Assembly (NCBI GenBank): GCA_021736975.1
Contig: JAIPET010000009.1
Span: 1 to 36,892 of the forward strand
DNA from: Candidatus Woesearchaeota archaeon
GTDB lineage: Archaea > Nanobdellota > Nanobdellia > Woesearchaeales > 21-14-0-10-32-9
Length of the DNA stretch: 36,892 nucleotides
Direction of reading: 5' to 3'
Made by a program: the position numbers and the translations under genes. Shown piece by piece: positions 3,032-36,748 of the stretch. The first letter of the stretch is position 1, and each line of letters starts with the position of its first letter. The notes beneath the pieces are model-generated. The model did not search any database and was not told where the DNA came from. It worked only from the letters and a program-made list of their open reading frames with translations.

Positions 3032-3724
3032 TTAGTTTATATTAAGAACGGAGGGTATTGGTAAATAGAAAAAACCATGTTTTTCTTTTAAGTATTGTTC
3101 TGTGTGATTTATTTTTTCTTTATTTTGTAGATTTATTGAGAATATTTTTGATATTGAATGTGTTAGCGCTTCAAATTCTAAGTGTTTGTCTTCTGTGTAT
3201 TTTTTATTTGTTATTATGTCTGTTAGTTCAAGGATGCGATTATTTATTTTTGTTGAGAATTTATTGTTTGTTTCTTCAGGTTCATATATTATTTTAGTTT
3301 GTTCTATTGGTATGAATTTTTCTTCACTATATTCTATTAATGTATTTTCGTCAATTTCTTTAAAATATATTCTGAAGGGTTTTTCTGTTTTGTATGGTTT
3401 TGAGTTTACTATTTTTTTGAAATTTTCTCTTTCTATTGATGCTTCTAATAAGTCAAGGTGTATTATTTCGTGAAATAGGTATAGTGATTGTGCTGTTAAA
3501 TAGTGGGATAGTATTTCTTCTTTTGTTAATATTTCGTTGTTTTCTTTTTTTTGTATTTTTAGATATCCGTTTATTTTTGTTAGTTGTTTTATTATATTTT
3601 TTTTCTTTAGGTTTCCAAAATTTGTTTGAAATTTTGAGAAGTGTTGATTTATTTGTTTCATTGAGTAAAAACCCATATTTAACTCATATCTTTGTCTTAG
3701 TTCAAAGTTTAAAGAATAGTTCAT
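3032..3724 (-). CDS. Hypothetical protein with HExxH motif (possible zincin)
   Basis: 230 aa; 'LYLFHEIIHLDLLEAS' and downstream 'HLEFEALTHSISKIF'. Confidence 0.55.
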   Translation of the reverse strand: MNYSLNFELRQRYELNMGFYSMKQINQHFSKFQTNFGNLKKKNIIKQLTKINGYLKIQKKENNEILTKEEILSHYLTAQSLYLFHEIIHLDLLEASIERENFKKIVNSKPYKTEKPFRIYFKEIDENTLIEYSEEKFIPIEQTKIIYEPEETNNKFSTKINNRILELTDIITNKKYTEDKHLEFEALTHSISKIFSINLQNKEKINHTEQYLKEKHGFFYLPIPSVLNIN

Positions 3725-3769
3725 ATTGTTTTTTTTGCTTTTTTTATTAATTAATTTTATGGAAGTTAT

Positions 3770-4201
3770 TTATTTTATGTTTTTAAATTCTATTGTGTCT
3801 CCTTCTTTCATGTTTTTTTCTGCGGTTATATTTGCATTTATTTCTAATACGTATAGTGCTTGTTTTTCAGGATCATATATTGTGCATGGTTCTTCTTTGC
3901 AGGGTGTTGCGCTCATTATTTTTTCTATTTTTTTATTTTGATTTATCCATATTATGTCTAGCGGTATTAGTGTGTTTTTCATCCAGAATGGATAGTTTCC
4001 TGATTTTTCAAATATGAATAGCATTCCTTCATTTTCTGGTAGGTATTCTCTATTCATTAATCCTATTTGTCTTGTTTCTGGTGTGTTTACTATTTCTATG
4101 TTGAAGCATTTTTCATTTATGCATGCTTTTGGTTTTTGTTCTTGGCATCCTGTTATGAGTATTAAAGAAAGTATTATTGTTGCAAATATTATTTTTTTCA
4201 T
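3770..4201 (-). CDS. DUF192 family lipoprotein
   Basis: Lipobox LILITGC; 'TPETRQIGLMNREYLPENEGMLFIFEKSGNYPFWMKNTLIPLDIIWI' is the DUF192 signature. Confidence 0.9.
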   Translation of the reverse strand: MKKIIFATIILSLILITGCQEQKPKACINEKCFNIEIVNTPETRQIGLMNREYLPENEGMLFIFEKSGNYPFWMKNTLIPLDIIWINQNKKIEKIMSATPCKEEPCTIYDPEKQALYVLEINANITAEKNMKEGDTIEFKNIK

Positions 4202-4379: not shown

Positions 4380-6620
4380 TTATTCGTATTCTTTGTCCAT
4401 TAGTTCTTTGATTTTTTTTGCTTTAATTTTTCCAATAAGTTCTACTTCTTGTAGTTCTTCTAGTGATGCGTTTGCTATTGCTTTTATTGTTTTAAAGTGT
4501 TTTAGTAGTGCTGGTGCTAGTCTTGGTCCTATGTCTGGTATTGATGATATTATGTATTCTTGTATTTCTTTATCGTTGATTGGTTTTGTTGTGTGCATTT
4601 GCCAGTCTTTTTCGTCTGTTGATTGTTCTCTTTTTGCTATTTGTCTGAGTAGTCCTGCTGTGTCTTTTGCATTTCTTGTTTGTATTAGTGGTATTCTAAG
4701 TCCTATGGTGAGTGCGGCTAGCATTCCTCTTATTGCGTTTGGGTGTATTCTTCTTTGGCTGTATATGTCGTCTGTTCCTTCTATTATTATTAAGGGTTTA
4801 TAGAATTGTTTGAGTTCTTTTGCTTGGCTTAGTAGTCGTCCGTCTATTATCGAATCAACAAAATCTTTTACTGTTTTGTATTCTACTATTACGTGTTCTG
4901 ATAGTTGGTAGTCTCCTAGTTGCATACTTTCTAAGTTAATATTTACTTTTAGATCTAGTAGTTCTTTTATTACTTGGCTTCCTTTTTCTCTGTAGTCTAC
5001 TTTTATTGTGATTTCTTCTTCGCTTAGAAAGTCTGCTAATGGTTTGTTTTGTGTTTTACTTACGGATTCTTGTGATCCTAAAATTGTTTTTTGTTCTTCG
5101 TTATTTTTTTCATGAAGTTTGTTTTTTATGTTTTTTAGTGCTTGATACATTCGTTTTTCTTTATGGTGTGCCGCCCATTTATATCCTTCGTCTCTTGTTC
5201 CTTTTGTTATTAGTGTTATTACTTGTCCTTCTTTTTGTCTTCCTGTTCTTCCTCTTCTTTGTACGGTTCTAATTGCTGATGGTATTGGTTCGTAAAATAT
5301 GACTAGGTCTACTTCGGGAATATCAAGTCCTTCTTCTCCTACGCTTGTTGCAATTAGACAATTAAATGTGTCTTCTGAGAAATTTTCTAGCATTTGTTTT
5401 TGTTGTTTTTGACTTAGTCCGGTATTTTTTTTCTTTGCTTGTCCAACAAATATTTCTGAGCTTATTTTATCTTCTTCTAGTACTTCTTTTATTTTTGATG
5501 CTGTGTCTCTGAATTGTGTGAATATTATTATTTTACATTTTTGATTATGTTTTATGTGTTGGGTTGTTATTTCTTTTATTTTGTCTAGTTTTGGGTGTCT
5601 TATTTTTTGTTCTATTAGTTTTTCTGTTAGTATTTTTGCTGATCTAAAGTTTAAATCTTGAACTAGGTTTTTTACTGATTTTACTTTTCCGCTGCTTGCT
5701 TGTTTTTCTAAATCTGTCATGTATGAGTGTAGTGGGTTGATGTCTTGCGTTTCTATTAGTTCTATTGCGTGTTCTACTTTTAGTGCTTCTGCAACTAAGG
5801 ATATTGATTTTAGCACATCATATTCTTTTTCTCCGCTTGCTATTTTTCCTTGCAGTGCTCCTATGACTTTTAGTAGTGTTGTTTTATTATAGTTATTAAT
5901 TGCGCCATGTAAATATCCTAATTTTATTGCTTCGTCTATTTTTGATTCGTATGCTTTTTTTAGAAATCTGTGTATTCTTAGAAGTTCTTCTGTTAGTTCT
6001 ACGTGTATTGTTTCTTGTTTCATTTCTTGGATGTATTCTTTTACGTCTGGGTCGTCGTGGCTTCGGTATTCTACTTCGTCAATAAATAGGTTTGAACATA
6101 CTTCTAATATTTTTGCTTGATCTGCTCCCGGACTTGCAGTGAGTGCAAGTATTCTTTCATGTTTTGCTTTTTCATGATATTTTTTTGCTAAGAATACGTA
6201 TGCGTAGTCTTTTACTGCTCTGTGCGCTTCGTCAATTATTAATAGGGATATTTCTTCTAATTTTATTCTTCTGCTTATTACGTCATTTTCAAGTCCCTGG
6301 GGCGTGCTTATTATTATTTGGTTTTCATCAAATAGTTCTTGTCTTTTTTCAGGTTTTATTGTTCCTGTAAATAATATTATTTTGTCTTTCATTTTAGGGA
6401 AGAATTTTTTTAGGCTTTTTTCGTGTTGTCCAGCTAATGGTTTTGTTGGTGCTAAGAACATTATTTTTGAATCAGGATAATTATCTAATCTTTGGGTCAT
6501 TAGCATTGCAGCTATGGCTGTTTTTCCAAGACCAGTTGGTAAGACTGCCATTGTATTTGATTTTACTGCGGTATTAAGAATTGTTTCTTGATATAATCTT
6601 GGGGTTATTCCTACTAGCAT
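4380..6620 (-). CDS. hef: Hef-type (FANCM/XPF-like) helicase-nuclease
   Basis: Helicase motifs PTGLGKT, LLIIDEAHRA, TASPG, QRRGRTGRQ; C-terminal ERCC4 nuclease (VDYREKGS, GDY...EYKTVKDFVDSIIDGRL) and HhH region. Confidence 0.95.
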   Translation of the reverse strand: MLVGITPRLYQETILNTAVKSNTMAVLPTGLGKTAIAAMLMTQRLDNYPDSKIMFLAPTKPLAGQHEKSLKKFFPKMKDKIILFTGTIKPEKRQELFDENQIIISTPQGLENDVISRRIKLEEISLLIIDEAHRAVKDYAYVFLAKKYHEKAKHERILALTASPGADQAKILEVCSNLFIDEVEYRSHDDPDVKEYIQEMKQETIHVELTEELLRIHRFLKKAYESKIDEAIKLGYLHGAINNYNKTTLLKVIGALQGKIASGEKEYDVLKSISLVAEALKVEHAIELIETQDINPLHSYMTDLEKQASSGKVKSVKNLVQDLNFRSAKILTEKLIEQKIRHPKLDKIKEITTQHIKHNQKCKIIIFTQFRDTASKIKEVLEEDKISSEIFVGQAKKKNTGLSQKQQKQMLENFSEDTFNCLIATSVGEEGLDIPEVDLVIFYEPIPSAIRTVQRRGRTGRQKEGQVITLITKGTRDEGYKWAAHHKEKRMYQALKNIKNKLHEKNNEEQKTILGSQESVSKTQNKPLADFLSEEEITIKVDYREKGSQVIKELLDLKVNINLESMQLGDYQLSEHVIVEYKTVKDFVDSIIDGRLLSQAKELKQFYKPLIIIEGTDDIYSQRRIHPNAIRGMLAALTIGLRIPLIQTRNAKDTAGLLRQIAKREQSTDEKDWQMHTTKPINDKEIQEYIISSIPDIGPRLAPALLKHFKTIKAIANASLEELQEVELIGKIKAKKIKELMDKEYE

Positions 6621-11734: not shown

Positions 11735-13663
11735 ATGCTTTTATCAAAGACTCTTAAATTCTATAAGCGAAAAGAAGTTCAAAGTCTATTAGTTCATTAT
11801 GCTAAAGATAAGGAAATTGCTGTAAGATTTAAGGATTATTTTGGTAAACGACCTGATACTTTAATGTATGATGCGGATATTATTGAGTTAGCAAAAAAGA
11901 AAGCGACTAGTTTTCATTGTTCTGAAGAACTTTGGATTAATCCGTTGCAAATTAGTAGTGATTTGAAAAAACAAGAGCTTGATAATTTAAGAAAAGGTTG
12001 GGATTTAATTTTAGATATTGATTGTCATCATTTTGTTTATAGTAAAATTGCAACTCATATTCTTATAAAAATATTAAAAGATCAAGGCATAGAAAGTATT
12101 TCGTGTAAATTTTCTGGTAATAAAGGTTTTCATATAGCTGTTCCTTTTGAAGCATTTCCAGAAGATGTTAATGGAACTTTAGTCAAGGATTTATTTCCAG
12201 AGGCTCCTAGGAAAATTGCTTTTTATTTAAGAGATAAATTAAGACCTTTATTTGAAAGAGCGATTTTAAAATATGAAAAAAATGATATTAACAACATTAT
12301 GAAAAGAACAGGTATGGCGCATAAAGATTTAGTGATGCAAAAAGATGTTAAAGCAATCATTGATGAAAATACAACTAGTGATAAATTAAATGTTGATTCG
12401 TTTTTAGAAATTGATACTATATTGATCGCGTCAAGACATTTGTATAGGATGCCTTATTCTTTACATGAAAAATCTGAATTAGTTTCAGTTCCTGTGGATA
12501 TTAATAAAATTTTGAAATTTTCAAAAAAAGAAGCGGAACCTGAAAATGTGAAATTTGATATTCCTTTTATTCAAAGAGAAAAAGCTAAATCTGGTGAAGC
12601 AAATCAACTTTTCATAAATGCATATGATTTTAATTTTGATGAATCTAAATCATCAGAAACAAAAGAACGTAAGGAGTTTAAACTTCCCGAAACAGCTATT
12701 AGAGAAGAACTTTTTCCGCCTTGTATAAAATTCGCTTTAAACGGAATGAAAGATGGTAAGAAAAGAATGCTTTTTACATTAACTAATTTTATGAGAGGAG
12801 CTGGTTGGGGTTTTGATGCGATTGAATTAAGATTAAATGATTGGAATAAAAAAAATCCTGAACCTTTAAGACAAGTTTTACTTAATGGTCAATTAAGACA
12901 ATTAAAAAAGAATAAAGATGTTGTAGCACCTCATAATTGTCCTCAAGGAGGAACTAGGTATTTTCAAGATTTACAATTATGTCATCCTGATTCTTTTTGT
13001 AGTAAAATAAAAAATCCTTTGCAATATTCTAAATTAAAATATGAGACTGAAAAAAATACTAAAGGAAAATCTGAATTAACAAACGAACAAGTTACTGCAA
13101 GAAATTTTGATAAAGTTTTAACAGAAAATATTATTGAAAAAATTAAACCTTTTGCAAAACTTTCATCTGCTAATGTTTTAGATGTTGGTTGCGGAGATGG
13201 TAAAAAAGGCAGATATTTGGCTCAGAAAAGTTTTTCATATACAGGTATTGATTTAGATGAACAAAGAATTAGAATTGCATCTAATCTTGTTAAATCAAAA
13301 AAGATTACTTTTTTTAATGATTCGTTTGAAAATTTTCAAACAGAAAAATTGTTTGATGTTGTTTATTTTATTTTTTCTTGGCGTTATATGAAAAATTTTA
13401 ATTCTATTTTAAAAAAATTAAAATCTCTTTTATCTGATAAAGGGGTTATTGTAATTGTAGAACCTTCTGAAAAAACTGAAAATTGGAAAAGTCCTTATTT
13501 AAGAAAATCAAGTAAAGATTTTGATGAAAATATTTTTAATGAAACTATTGAAAAAATAAATTTAGCAATAAATATTTTAAAAAATTCAGAAAAAATAGAG
13601 ATTATTAATAAGTCTCAAATTAATATTGATTATCATTCACTATATATATTAAGGTTAAAATAA
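11735..13663 (+). CDS. priS: Fused archaeal DNA primase (PriS catalytic + PriL-like Fe-S domain) with C-terminal SAM methyltransferase domain
   Basis: LILDIDCHHF, CKFSGNKGFHIAVPFE (AEP motifs); Cys set PPCIKFAL / HNCPQGG / QLCHPDSFC (PriL-like); NVLDVGCGDGKKGRYL...YTGIDLDEQRI (class I methyltransferase). Confidence 0.85.
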   Translation: MLLSKTLKFYKRKEVQSLLVHYAKDKEIAVRFKDYFGKRPDTLMYDADIIELAKKKATSFHCSEELWINPLQISSDLKKQELDNLRKGWDLILDIDCHHFVYSKIATHILIKILKDQGIESISCKFSGNKGFHIAVPFEAFPEDVNGTLVKDLFPEAPRKIAFYLRDKLRPLFERAILKYEKNDINNIMKRTGMAHKDLVMQKDVKAIIDENTTSDKLNVDSFLEIDTILIASRHLYRMPYSLHEKSELVSVPVDINKILKFSKKEAEPENVKFDIPFIQREKAKSGEANQLFINAYDFNFDESKSSETKERKEFKLPETAIREELFPPCIKFALNGMKDGKKRMLFTLTNFMRGAGWGFDAIELRLNDWNKKNPEPLRQVLLNGQLRQLKKNKDVVAPHNCPQGGTRYFQDLQLCHPDSFCSKIKNPLQYSKLKYETEKNTKGKSELTNEQVTARNFDKVLTENIIEKIKPFAKLSSANVLDVGCGDGKKGRYLAQKSFSYTGIDLDEQRIRIASNLVKSKKITFFNDSFENFQTEKLFDVVYFIFSWRYMKNFNSILKKLKSLLSDKGVIVIVEPSEKTENWKSPYLRKSSKDFDENIFNETIEKINLAINILKNSEKIEIINKSQINIDYHSLYILRLK

Positions 13664-13689
13664 ACTCTTCTTGGCAGTGATTAATCATA

Positions 13690-13812
13690 GGCTCTAGCCG
13701 GAATAACACTTTTGTGTATACTGGCGCCCATCGAGGCACATGCAGTCTCGAAGAGAATGCATAGGTTGTGCCGTGTTCCAGTATACAAATTTATTATTTT
13801 CCGGCCAGAGCC
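13690..13812 (+). mobile_element. 123-bp MITE-like palindromic element, copy 1
   Basis: TIRs GGCTCTAGCCGGAA / TTCCGGCCAGAGCC (13/14 paired), flanked by perfect 8-bp direct repeat TAATCATA (13682-13689, 13813-13820). Confidence 0.9.
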
Positions 13813-13826
13813 TAATCATACAAAGC

Positions 13827-13835
13827 TTTTTAAAT
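13827..13835 (+). promoter_or_regulatory. TATA box of the ribosomal protein operon
   Basis: CAAAGC-TTTTTAAAT (BRE+TATA like). Confidence 0.5.
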
Positions 13836-14002: not shown

Positions 14003-15001
14003 ATGGGAAAAACAGGAAAACCAAGAAGCGGAAGTATGGGTGTTTGGCCTAGAAAAAGATCTGTAAGACCTTATGCTAAAGTAAGAGCTAAAGCATCTGT
14101 AAAAGAAGCAAAATTATTATCTTTTCCAGCATACAAAGCAGGTATGACTCACGTTATGGCTGTTGGTTCAGATAAAAATAAAAGAACCGCAAAATTAAAC
14201 ACTGCTGTTTCTGTAACAATTCTTGAATGTCCACCTATTAGATTAGCATCATTAAGATTATATAAAGAAACATCAAATGGATCAGTTGTTGTTTCACAAT
14301 TAAATTTCAAAACAGAAAAGGAGTTAACAAGAAAGCTTCCAGTTGTAAAAAAAGGGAAATTATCAACTACTGATGATTTAGCAAAATTAAATTCAGATGA
14401 TTATTCAGATGTAACTGTTCAAGTTTATACTCAACCTAAACAAACAAGCATTAAAAAAACACCAGAATTATTTGAAATAAGTCTAGGTGGAAAAGTTGCA
14501 GATAAAATTGAATGGGTAAAAGCACATCTTGATTCCCAAATACCAATCACTGAGGTTTTCAAAGAAGGACAATTTGTAGATTCACATTCAATAACTAAAG
14601 GAAAAGGATTTCAAGGACCTGTTAAAAGATTTGGTATTGGTTTAACAAGTCACAAAGCAGAAAAAGCAAGAAGAAACCCAGGATCTTTAGGTGGATGGAA
14701 AGGTCAAGCACACGTAATGTATAGGGTGCCACATGCAGGACAAACAGGATATCATCAAAGAACACAATTTAATAACTCTATTCTAAAAATTTCAGAAAAA
14801 CCAGAAGAAGTTAATCCAAAAGGGGGATTAGTAAATTTTGGAAATGTTAAATCATCATACTTATTAATAAGGGGAACTATACCAGGACCTAAAAAAAGAT
14901 TAATTACATTAACAGAGCCAGTAAGATTAAATGGTAAAAAACCAGAATTTACGCCTGACTCAATTAAACAAATAATTACAGATAGTAAACAGGGAAGATA
15001 A
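14003..15001 (+). CDS. rpl3: Ribosomal protein L3
   Basis: MGKTGKPRSGSMGVWPRKRS..., GKGFQGPVKRFG, NPGSLGGWKGQAHVMYRVPHAGQTGYHQRT. Confidence 0.97.
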   Translation: MGKTGKPRSGSMGVWPRKRSVRPYAKVRAKASVKEAKLLSFPAYKAGMTHVMAVGSDKNKRTAKLNTAVSVTILECPPIRLASLRLYKETSNGSVVVSQLNFKTEKELTRKLPVVKKGKLSTTDDLAKLNSDDYSDVTVQVYTQPKQTSIKKTPELFEISLGGKVADKIEWVKAHLDSQIPITEVFKEGQFVDSHSITKGKGFQGPVKRFGIGLTSHKAEKARRNPGSLGGWKGQAHVMYRVPHAGQTGYHQRTQFNNSILKISEKPEEVNPKGGLVNFGNVKSSYLLIRGTIPGPKKRLITLTEPVRLNGKKPEFTPDSIKQIITDSKQGR

Positions 15002-33828: not shown

Positions 33829-33876
33829 CTCATTTTTTCAGAGTAACACTATAACTTTATTCGGAGGGTGTTTTTT

Positions 33877-34110
33877 ATGGCTAAAAAGGTTGTCAAAGTT
33901 GGTGTTAAAAAAGAATCGGGATATTTATACTTTGTTGATAAAAATGGAAATGTTGCTCGTGCTGTTATGAGTAGAGGTAATAAAAAAGGTAAAAAAGGTA
34001 AACCTGAAGTTGTTGCTAAACCTGGTATTGAGAAAGAATCGGGATATTTGTATTTTGTTGATAAAGATGGTGATGTTTCTAAAGCTAAAATGGCTCGTGG
34101 TAGAAAATAA
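33877..34110 (+). CDS. Small basic protein with duplicated GYLYFVDK motif
   Basis: MAKKVVKVGVKKESGYLYFVDKNGNVARAVMSRG...KESGYLYFVDKDGDVSKAKMARGRK; CGGAGGGTG SD supports ATG at 33877. Confidence 0.8.
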   Translation: MAKKVVKVGVKKESGYLYFVDKNGNVARAVMSRGNKKGKKGKPEVVAKPGIEKESGYLYFVDKDGDVSKAKMARGRK

Positions 34111-34225
34111 TTTGTTTGGTTTTAATACAAATAAATTTTATTAATTATTTGATTTAATATATTTTTGTACTAGTAAAAACAACGAGTTTATTATTTTTGT
34201 TGACTTTAAATATTTTTTTAATATT

Positions 34226-34348
34226 GGCTCTAGCCGGAATAACACTTTTGTGTATACTGGCGCCCATCGAGGCACATGCAGTCTAAAAGAGAATGCATAG
34301 GTTGTGCCGTGTTCCAGTATACAAATTTATTCTTTTCCGGCCAGAGCC
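34226..34348 (+). mobile_element. 123-bp MITE-like palindromic element, copy 2
   Basis: 3 substitutions relative to copy 1; flanked by perfect 8-bp direct repeat TTAATATT (34218-34225, 34349-34356). Confidence 0.9.
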
Positions 34349-34370
34349 TTAATATTTACTTTCAATATTA

Positions 34371-34399: not shown

Positions 34400-36748
34400 A
34401 TGACTAAGCTTGAAGAGCTTTTATCTGATGAAGAATTTAATAAACTTGATACTAATTTAAAAAATAAATTAATTAGTAAGTTTAATGAAATGGAAGATGA
34501 ACTTGGCAGATTTAATTTAATTAAAAATAATTCTTTGACAGGATATGCACGTCATAAAATGATTTTTGATGAGAATGGCAAATCTTTAGATTATGTTTTT
34601 TTGGAAGTTAATGAAAAATTTGAAGAGATGACTAATTTAAAATCAACAAATATTCTTAATAAAGGACTTAAAGAAACTTTAAAAGGTTCTGAGTTTGATT
34701 CTGAAAATTGGATTTCTAGGTATGGATTTGTTGTTAAAAAGAAGGGGTTTGAAGTGTTTGAGGATTTTTCTTCTTTTTTTAATAAATGGTACAAAGTATC
34801 TGTTTTTTATAGTGCTGATGATGAGTTTATTACTTTATTTGATGATGTTACTGATATAAAAAATAAAGAAAGGGATTTGAATCTTAGAGTTAAGCAGCTT
34901 AATGCGTTTCATGAACTTGGAAAATTAACTTCTGAAACAAATTCTCTTGAAGATATTTTTGATGTTTTTGTAAATGATATCCTTCCTAATAGTTTACAGT
35001 ATCCGGATATTGCTTTTGGAGTACTAGACTTTGATGGCAAAAGGTATTTGTCTTCTAAAGTTGTTGAGGATTTAGAAAATTTTTCTATTTCGTCTGATGT
35101 AATTATTAATGGTAAGATGAGGGGAAATTTAAAAGTTGGTTATTTAGAAGATAAATTGTTTTTGCCAGAGGAGAAAGAAAATGTTGATGATTTAGTTGAG
35201 CGAATTTGCAATGTTGTTGATAGGCTTTCAACTCATAAAATTTTGAAATTAAGCGAGACTAGATATAAGGCCGTTGTTGATAATTCTCCAATTTCTATGT
35301 TTATTGCTGATGAAAATGGAAATTATTTGTATGTTAATCCTGAAGCGATAAATTTATTGGGGTTCTCAGAAGAGGAACTTTTAAATTTAAGTATTCCTGA
35401 ATTACTCACCCAGGAGTATTTAGAAAAAGGTATTGCTGTTTTTAAAGAATTAAAAGAAAATAAAATTGTTTATGACTCTGAATTGCAATTAAAATCTAAG
35501 AATGGCCCTCCTGTTGACATTCTTTTGAATGCGAGTTTTGTTGAGAATGTGGGTTATATTGGTCAAGCTATTGATATTTCTTTTCAGAACAAAATTTCTG
35601 GACAATTAGAAGAATCTTTAACTAAATATAAGTCTCTTTTTGATAATGCTCCTAGTGGTGTAGTTAATTTGTCTAAAAATTTAAAAGTTTTAGATGTTAA
35701 TAATTATGTTTGTGAGATTTCAGGGTATTCAAAAGATTATTATGTTGGTAAACACATTAAAGATATCGCAAATATTAGTGCAAAAGACATTCCTAAATTA
35801 TTGAATATTTCTAAGGATTTATTTTTGGGAAAAAATATTAAACCATTTAATTATGATTGGTTCGATATTGATGGCAATAAAAGAACTTCTTTTGCAAATG
35901 TTGTTCCTTTAAAACTTAATGGTAAAAAGGAGAGTTATCAAATTTCTTTGGTTGATGTTACTGAGATGGTTTCTCTTGAAAATAATTTAAATATTTTAAC
36001 AAATGAGTTAAAAGAAGCTTATGAAGTTTTAGAAAAAAAGAATGTTGAATTAATTATTGCTAATAATATTAAAGATGATTTTCTTAATAATTTATCTCAT
36101 GAAATTAGAACTCCTCTTACAGGGATTTCTTCAGGGGTTGATTATTTTTATGAACTTTCTTTAGAGCAAGTTATGGATGATGAACAAATGATGTTTCTTG
36201 ATTTGATAAAAGGAGCAAAAGACAGGTTGTTAAGAACTATTACAAATCTTCAATCTTATGTGGATTTGTATGTTCAAGATTGTAATTTAATGCCTGAAAG
36301 AATAAATGTGTCTGATTATGTAAATAAAATTATTTCAAAATATGATTCTAATAAAAATATTAAAATTTCTAATGAGAATGTTATGGATTCTCTTTTTGTT
36401 GATGTTGATGTTGATGCTTTGAAAATTTCTCTTGATAATATTATTCATAATTCTATTAATTATTCAAAAAATAATAATTCTTCTTTTGTAAAGGTTGATT
36501 TATATGAAGAAAATGAATTCGTTGTTTTTAGAGTTGAAGATAATGGTGTTGGAATGTCTTCAGAATATTTGAAGAATGATGTTTTTAAACCTTTTAATCA
36601 GGAAAGCGGAGGCTTTGCAAAAAAGTATCAAGGTACTGGTTCTGGTTTGGCTGTTACTAAAAAATTTTTAGAAAAATCTGGCGCAATATTAAACGTTGTT
36701 AGTGAAAAAGAAAAGGGGACTGTTGTTGAAGTTAAATTTAAAAAGTGA
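34400..36748 (+). CDS. Soluble multi-PAS sensor histidine kinase
   Basis: PAS-like segments, FLNNLSHEIRTPLTGI (H box), SLDNIIHNSINYSK (N), VEDNGVGMSSEYL, GTGSGLAVTKKFLEKSG (G boxes). Confidence 0.93.
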   Translation: MTKLEELLSDEEFNKLDTNLKNKLISKFNEMEDELGRFNLIKNNSLTGYARHKMIFDENGKSLDYVFLEVNEKFEEMTNLKSTNILNKGLKETLKGSEFDSENWISRYGFVVKKKGFEVFEDFSSFFNKWYKVSVFYSADDEFITLFDDVTDIKNKERDLNLRVKQLNAFHELGKLTSETNSLEDIFDVFVNDILPNSLQYPDIAFGVLDFDGKRYLSSKVVEDLENFSISSDVIINGKMRGNLKVGYLEDKLFLPEEKENVDDLVERICNVVDRLSTHKILKLSETRYKAVVDNSPISMFIADENGNYLYVNPEAINLLGFSEEELLNLSIPELLTQEYLEKGIAVFKELKENKIVYDSELQLKSKNGPPVDILLNASFVENVGYIGQAIDISFQNKISGQLEESLTKYKSLFDNAPSGVVNLSKNLKVLDVNNYVCEISGYSKDYYVGKHIKDIANISAKDIPKLLNISKDLFLGKNIKPFNYDWFDIDGNKRTSFANVVPLKLNGKKESYQISLVDVTEMVSLENNLNILTNELKEAYEVLEKKNVELIIANNIKDDFLNNLSHEIRTPLTGISSGVDYFYELSLEQVMDDEQMMFLDLIKGAKDRLLRTITNLQSYVDLYVQDCNLMPERINVSDYVNKIISKYDSNKNIKISNENVMDSLFVDVDVDALKISLDNIIHNSINYSKNNNSSFVKVDLYEENEFVVFRVEDNGVGMSSEYLKNDVFKPFNQESGGFAKKYQGTGSGLAVTKKFLEKSGAILNVVSEKEKGTVVEVKFKK

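Follow-up and report, generated by a model that had tools for sequence, protein, structure and literature searches.

Insertion of woesearchaeal MITEs in a fixed register upstream of the archaeal core promoter

In the genome of a Candidatus Woesearchaeota archaeon the new copies of short MITEs land in one fixed register relative to the core promoter, leaving the BRE, the TATA box, and the gene intact. The reading that we prefer, with a probability of about 0.65, is that these MITEs are moved in trans by IS5-type transposases for which the core promoter is the target, probably through docking on TFB/TBP. The window, that is, the whole analysed stretch of 36,892 nucleotides, is contig C12 of the 1.31-Mb host genome assembled in 47 contigs, and the promoter-specific landing site was absent from the first-pass annotation of this DNA.

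The Element in the Window

Two copies of the element, with their duplications and the adjoining promoter sequences, are located as follows.

13682 to 13689, no strand: left 8-bp target-site duplication (TSD) of copy 1, TAATCATA
13690 to 13812, plus strand: 123-bp MITE (group A), copy 1, with terminal inverted repeats (TIRs) GGCTCTAGCCGGAA (13690-13703) and TTCCGGCCAGAGCC (13799-13812)
13813 to 13820, no strand: right 8-bp target-site duplication of copy 1, TAATCATA
13821 to 13826, plus strand: BRE-like hexamer CAAAGC, abutting the copy 1 duplication and part of the target, assigned by the logo register and the genome's own BRE consensus
13827 to 13834, plus strand: TATA box TTTTTAAA of the promoter hit by copy 1, ahead of the L3 operon
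14003 to 15001, plus strand: archaeal ribosomal protein L3 gene downstream of copy 1 (TIGR03626, over the cut-off)
34204 to 34217, minus strand: BRE/TATA-like AAAAATATTTAAAG to the left of copy 2, in the usual register, from which no gene reads away
34218 to 34225, no strand: left 8-bp duplication of copy 2, TTAATATT
34226 to 34348, plus strand: 123-bp MITE (group A), copy 2, with 3 differences from copy 1
34349 to 34356, no strand: right 8-bp duplication of copy 2, TTAATATT

The 123-bp element with TIRs and a perfect 8-bp duplication, recognized earlier from the sequence of the window, is real: the interval 13682-13820 annotated at that time consists of the element and both TAATCATA octamers. 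The second copy of equal length, with three differing positions and another perfect 8-bp flank, was found as described, and no transposase is seen in the window, in agreement with the same annotation. The L3 gene downstream of copy 1 marks the host as an archaeon, and the genome size suggests a DPANN-like lineage. The TIRs of copy 1 are 14 bp long, and its interior gives a long imperfect hairpin on folding. Copy 2 is the least clear case, as it fits the register only on the side without a gene reading away; the gene at 34400 has its likely real promoter, TTTATATA, at about 34371, on the other side and 14 nt from the duplication.

Copies, Families, and Spread in the Genome

The 16-nt TIR pattern (at most one mismatch) occurs 40 times in the genome against 0 occurrences of the reversed control, so neither window copy is due to chance. 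The genome search with the 123-bp element, which the first-pass annotation had proposed together with the listing of flanks, returned 31 matches; the 14 full-length 123-bp copies of group A show 93–100% identity over the query, and each has its own, different perfect 8-bp duplication. Pairwise these copies have 0–8 differences with a mean of 3.2 (mean divergence 2.6%), and three are identical. Seven divergent copies of the 123-bp type comprise group B (TIR GGTCTTGTCC, interior as in group A) and singletons, and a perfect 8-bp TSD is present in 19 of the 21 A/B copies. Group D includes seven elements of ~164 bp with the TIR of the 123-bp family and a different interior, while group C is a ~150-bp family of about 40 copies with TIR GGCTAATATGAAACCC and duplications of 8–10 bp as scored. 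The 123-bp element has no ORF, and both orientations are found among the 28 well-bounded A/B/D insertions (16 versus 12).

No group A copy was detected in the same-genus genome (G001) or in nine other family members, and the core pattern matched only 4 stretches in 85,488 GTDB genomes, all in unrelated bacteria and at chance level. The same pattern had no match in IMG/VR, no plasmid match was found, and TIR matches in viral contigs were without a partner and within unrelated sequence. Taken together, the near-identity of the copies, the lack of A copies in the relatives, and the chance-level GTDB matches indicate that group A represents a recent, lineage-restricted burst. The 123-bp elements are MITEs: they are short, multicopy, and without a transposase gene, and they possess TIRs, TSDs of fixed length that differ from site to site, and presence/absence at orthologous sites. 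The earlier idea of a non-autonomous element mobilised in trans is well supported by copy number, TIRs, differing perfect 8-bp duplications, and empty promoters in the same genus.

Several further observations were made on these families. Between A and B copies (L001, L017) the interior columns 26–98 are better conserved than the TIRs, which vary in paired fashion (GGCTCTAGCC versus GGTCTTGTCC), and the pattern gives the impression of a single interior combined with TIRs suited to different transposases. MITEs of different groups often adjoin at one promoter (host contigs C2, C5, C7, C16, C20, C41, C42, and C45), for example, 6307-6470 beside 6480-6600 in C45 and 3652-3799 beside 3808-3930 in C42, and copies of the ~150-bp family form the ends of several contigs. 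One copy (L022; host contig C15, 16265-16314) is truncated or hybrid: it retains only the right 46–50 bp of a group A element, its left side joins unrelated sequence, and the right flank is present without a matching left duplication.

The Fixed Register at the Core Promoter

In the 28 well-bounded A/B/D insertions, which correspond to 26 promoters, the duplicated 8 bp have no consensus. When the sites were aligned without gaps on the duplication edge, the TSD was directly followed by RWAANWTTTAWAAA, the next 14 bases being R W A A N W T T T A W A A A. The logo counts were A at +2 in 27/28, A at +3 in 25/28, T at +8 in 28/28, and A at +11 in 27/28, where the side of each site was picked by its TATA, so that the logo is partly conditioned on TATA and the BRE positions are not. 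The same BRE and TATA motif is found 25–35 nt upstream of the start codon in MITE-free promoters of the host genome, with the BRE being [AC][AG]NAAN; therefore, the duplication abuts the BRE.

A TATA hexamer is located 5–8 nt outside the TSD in 26 of 28 insertions, and in all 28 after the stacked inserts are unstacked. The background, based on rough ORF calling over about 402 kb of host-genome stretches, is 6.3% of intergenic positions (P 1.8e-29) and 8.5% of positions at most 120 nt upstream of ORFs (P 4.4e-26), and TATA at other offsets (0–5, 9 or more) is near background. The information is one-sided: it is contained downstream of the TSD and is lacking at the mirrored upstream positions, and TATA is present on both sides at only 1 of 26 sites. 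Of the 28 sites, 24 have an ORF of 70 aa or more that reads away from the TATA, and the identified target genes include those for L3, aIF5A, a proteasome subunit, RIO kinase, HerA, cytidylate kinase, and a subtilase.

The two exceptions to the register, in contigs C25 and C31, are the older inserts of stacked pairs with the younger 123-bp copy on the TATA side. The order is TACAAATA-[164]-TACAAATA-[123]-TACAAATA-GCAAGTTTTAAAT in C25 and, after the TATA on the left, GGATTTTT-[123]-GGATTTTT-[164]-GAATTTTT in C31. In both pairs the 123-bp copy, which is the better preserved, is placed between the TATA and the older insert and repeats the identical octamer, as would follow from a position measured from the promoter.

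Empty-site orthologues, whose search had also been proposed, were found in G001, where the orthologous promoters are empty, intact, and align through BRE and TATA. The occupied and empty sites read AAAAATCC/ATAACATTTATAAATCAGAATATT versus GCAATTCC/ACAACATTTAAATATCAGAATATT for C31, AATAATTC/AAATCATTTATAAATG versus CAAGTTC/AAATCATTTTTAAATA for C45, and ATCAATTA/GAAACCTTTAAATAGTAAA versus CAAGTA/GAAACCTTTAAATACTAAA for C7, and the intergenic region of the C22 insertion is also empty in G001. These alignments indicate that the promoters predate the insertions.

The Register in Group C and in Autonomous Elements of Relatives

The register is common to unrelated TIR groups and to autonomous relatives. 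The TATA motif had been defined on A copies after the sites were seen, and group C and the ISs, on which it was afterwards used, are independent of that choice; 16 of 37 group C copies were in register (P 2e-10). Autonomous elements were located through PF01609 in related genomes. The element L198, from a genome of another family of the same order (G018), is 1019 bp long and has a perfect TIR GGCTAATATGAAACCCTC, identical to the 18-bp TIR of group C, and a perfect 9-bp duplication AAATAGAAG, which is followed by GCAAGATTTTTAAATA and shortly after by a start codon. The 909-bp element L196, from the host's family (G004), has the TIR GGCTCTGTTCAAAA and a perfect 9-bp duplication, with ATAAACTTTATATA on one duplication side ahead of a gene reading away. 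The TATA offset is 8 in the G018 element and 6 in the G004 element, where the background is 2–4%. In a third element (L197 in G008; TIR GGCTCTGTCCTAAAT) TATA is in register on the left without an intact duplication, and a fourth (L200 in G010; TIR GGCTGATATGCACCCCT), whose transposase is 62% identical to that of L198, stops at the contig end without a right flank.

Which Transposase

The transposases of L198 and L196 scored 145 and 151 bits against the IS5-family model NF033579 (cut-off 140) and also match PF01609, and D115, D190, and E248 are invariant in the transposase alignment. Haloarchaeal relatives annotated as IS5/ISHla2-type also begin with GGCTCTGTTGAAATCC, and those on haloarchaeal plasmids (ISHla2 type) have GGCTCTGTT left ends in common. 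The TIR of the 123-bp family (GGCTCTAGCCGGAA) is only similar to the known IS ends (GGCTCTGTCCTAAAT, GGCTCTGTTCAAAA), and the GGCTCTGTCC..AAA pattern is common to the IS ends and the 123-bp family only in the divergent copies of the latter. The duplications are 8 bp in groups A, B, and D, 8–10 bp as scored in the ~150-bp family, and 9 bp in L196 and L198.

No transposase of the ISL3 (PF01610), IS1595 (PF12762), IS6 (PF13610), IS1 (PF03400), or PF01609 type was found in the host genome, TIR-pair searches for an autonomous copy there gave only MITE-sized pairs and single ends, and no transposase relatives were found in viral contigs. Loss of the gene, or omission of a repeated element from the 47-contig assembly, would both fit its absence from the assembly.

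The first-pass annotation suggested that the element may derive from the ISL3 family. The ends of ISL3 begin with GGCTCT and ISL3 makes 8-bp duplications, and from these two features a derivation from an ISL3-family insertion sequence could be proposed; it is nevertheless very improbable, since the suggested search for an ISL3-type transposase gave PF01610 matches in none of the 21 genomes (the host and 20 relatives) while control genomes do match, and since the relatives carry IS5-family (NF033579, PF01609) elements with GGCTCTGTCC/GGCTCTGTTC ends and 9-bp duplications where intact.

Proposed Mechanism and Rival Explanations

According to the preferred reading, an IS5-type DDE transposase would recognise the GG-starting terminal repeats and move the 123-bp MITE in trans; the enzyme that moved the host copies would have been of the IS5 type and has presumably since been lost or is absent from the assembly. 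The transposition complex would dock on the upstream face of the TFB-TBP-promoter complex, and this complex, or its bend, may set the one-sided target, after which a cut with an 8-bp stagger (about 9-bp for the ~150-bp family) would be made. The possible benefit for the element is a safe site in a compact genome.

We infer the involvement of TFB/TBP from the register and the asymmetry, together with the Ty3 precedent; more precisely, the one-sided pattern and the inclusion of BRE besides TATA point to it. In its broader form the proposal states that a group of archaeal IS5-type transposons and the MITEs derived from them dock on core promoters occupied by TFB/TBP and insert immediately upstream of the BRE, as a prokaryotic counterpart of Ty3/TFIIIB, in at least two TIR groups and in full-length elements of other genera of the order. 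The odds for this general form are about even.

The main rival, to which we give distinctly lower odds and which we consider unlikely, retains the same MITE and IS5-type transposase and supposes that the BRE/TATA sequence or its intrinsic bend is read directly, without TFB/TBP. This would suit a signal that is a sequence motif in fixed register, as well as the two insertions (C12, 34226, and C22, 20209) whose TATA-like sequence has no evident gene reading away from it. For a symmetric transposase dimer reading sequence alone, however, a pattern symmetric about the TSD is usually expected, while the observed pattern is strictly one-sided and includes BRE as well as TATA, that is, the footprint of TFB and TBP. 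Also, the random orientation of the insertions (16 versus 12) means that the asymmetry does not come from unequal element ends.

Docking on the promoter complex must also be weighed against survivorship, in which insertion is random and only the copies just upstream of promoters survive selection in the compact genome. The high coding density, and the fact that almost all sites spare genes and core promoters, agree with it; such selection, though, would tolerate copies anywhere upstream of BRE and in the intergenic space of convergent genes, whereas the register of all sites varies by no more than about 2 nt, offsets 0–5 or 9 and above show no excess, the identical 8 bp are re-used by stacked inserts, and the register is common to unrelated TIR groups and to ISs of other genera. 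This explanation is strongly disfavoured.

Least probable of all is a role of the 123-bp unit as a regulatory or RNA element retained on account of its hairpin, and not mainly as a transposon, because, although a hairpin can be folded from the whole unit and the subfamilies differ less in its interior than in the TIRs, TSDs are present at nearly every site, both orientations occur, no Rfam family matches at the gathering threshold, covariation lies mostly in the TIR helix and is weak in the interior, and the same-genus genome has none, so that the fixed RNA gene at orthologous positions envisaged by the first-pass annotation as a contrary outcome was not observed. One sub-threshold match to a plant miRNA hairpin is attributed to chance.

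Comparison with Known Systems

Promoter-complex-guided integration is a textbook eukaryotic strategy, with Ty3 acting on TFIIIB, and archaea have homologues of TBP and Brf1 in their own TBP and TFB. Brf1 and TBP form the minimal set of targeting factors for Ty3 (PMC8632968). Like the MITEs, Ty3, via TFIIIB, integrates a small fixed distance away from a promoter to which TBP and a TFB homologue (Brf1) are bound and leaves the gene intact, but it is a retrotransposon with an integrase that inserts at Pol III genes just upstream of the start site (PMC8632968), whereas the MITEs belong to DNA transposons, insert upstream of the BRE of ordinary archaeal promoters, and have a putative contact with the proteins.

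The IS5-family ISs (NF033579; PF01609; including the haloarchaeal ISHla2-type) are about 0.9–1.0 kb long with one DDE transposase, and they resemble the MITEs in the GGCT... terminal repeats (GGCTAATATGAAACCCTC, GGCTCTGTTCAAAA, GGCTCTGTCCTAAAT; ISHla2-type left end GGCTCTGTTGAAATCC) and in having duplications, of 9 bp in two intact copies from relatives, while the 123-bp MITE lacks an ORF and has an 8-bp duplication. No description of a fixed register to archaeal BRE/TATA was found for the IS5 family. The IS1202-family ISs (ISAjo2 group), which target pdif/dif 5 bp from the XerC site, similarly insert a fixed number of bases away from the site of a DNA-binding protein of the host; they differ in being bacterial, in belonging to another IS family, and in relying on XerC/dif rather than the general transcription machinery (PMC10132070). 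The known archaeal MITEs (Sulfolobus SM1-SM4, Haloquadratum) are likewise short, multicopy, bounded by TIRs, and mobilised in trans, with other TIRs and hosts, and the available part of the source describes no promoter-register targeting for them (PMC10969869).

In the open-access literature no report of archaeal transposons targeting BRE/TATA was found, nor any paper combining DPANN, miniature inverted-repeat elements, and transposase, and on this open-access basis the novelty of BRE/TATA targeting is provisional. If the preferred reading is true, the same outcome as that of Ty3 is reached in archaea by a simple IS5-type DDE transposase, which would offer a minimal system for the study of how a transposase reads the transcription pre-initiation complex. 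It would also account for the tolerance of roughly 70 insertions by a compact 1.3-Mb genome, among them those at the L3, proteasome, aIF5A, and RIO kinase promoters. Through the register, dozens of core promoters are marked in an uncultured archaeon, the insertions being natural markers of likely TFB/TBP-bound sites.

Other Features in the Window

The leader between the promoter and the L3 gene (13880-13970) holds CATCGCCTGAAAAGGGG...CTCCAATAATAGGCGA, and G001 keeps CATCGCCTGAAAAGGG...TTCCAATAATAGGTGA upstream of its own L3 gene (L174, about 1540), where the loop differs and the outer stem has a G-C to G-U-type change. This may be a structured RNA leader of the ribosomal operon; it has no Rfam match. 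One 642-aa ORF (11735-13663) matches the DNA primase small subunit and, weakly, the primase large subunit, has a C-terminal methyltransferase domain match, and is apparently a PriS-PriL fusion with an added methyltransferase. An 80-aa ORF (33868-34110), with no family match, consists of two tandem copies, 74% identical at the DNA level, of a ~33-residue unit (KKESGYLYFVDKNGNVARAVMSRGNKK-like). Finally, a short low-complexity array at 2710-2965 contains GGTTTTT/TTGTAGG-like units spaced about 20–22 nt apart.
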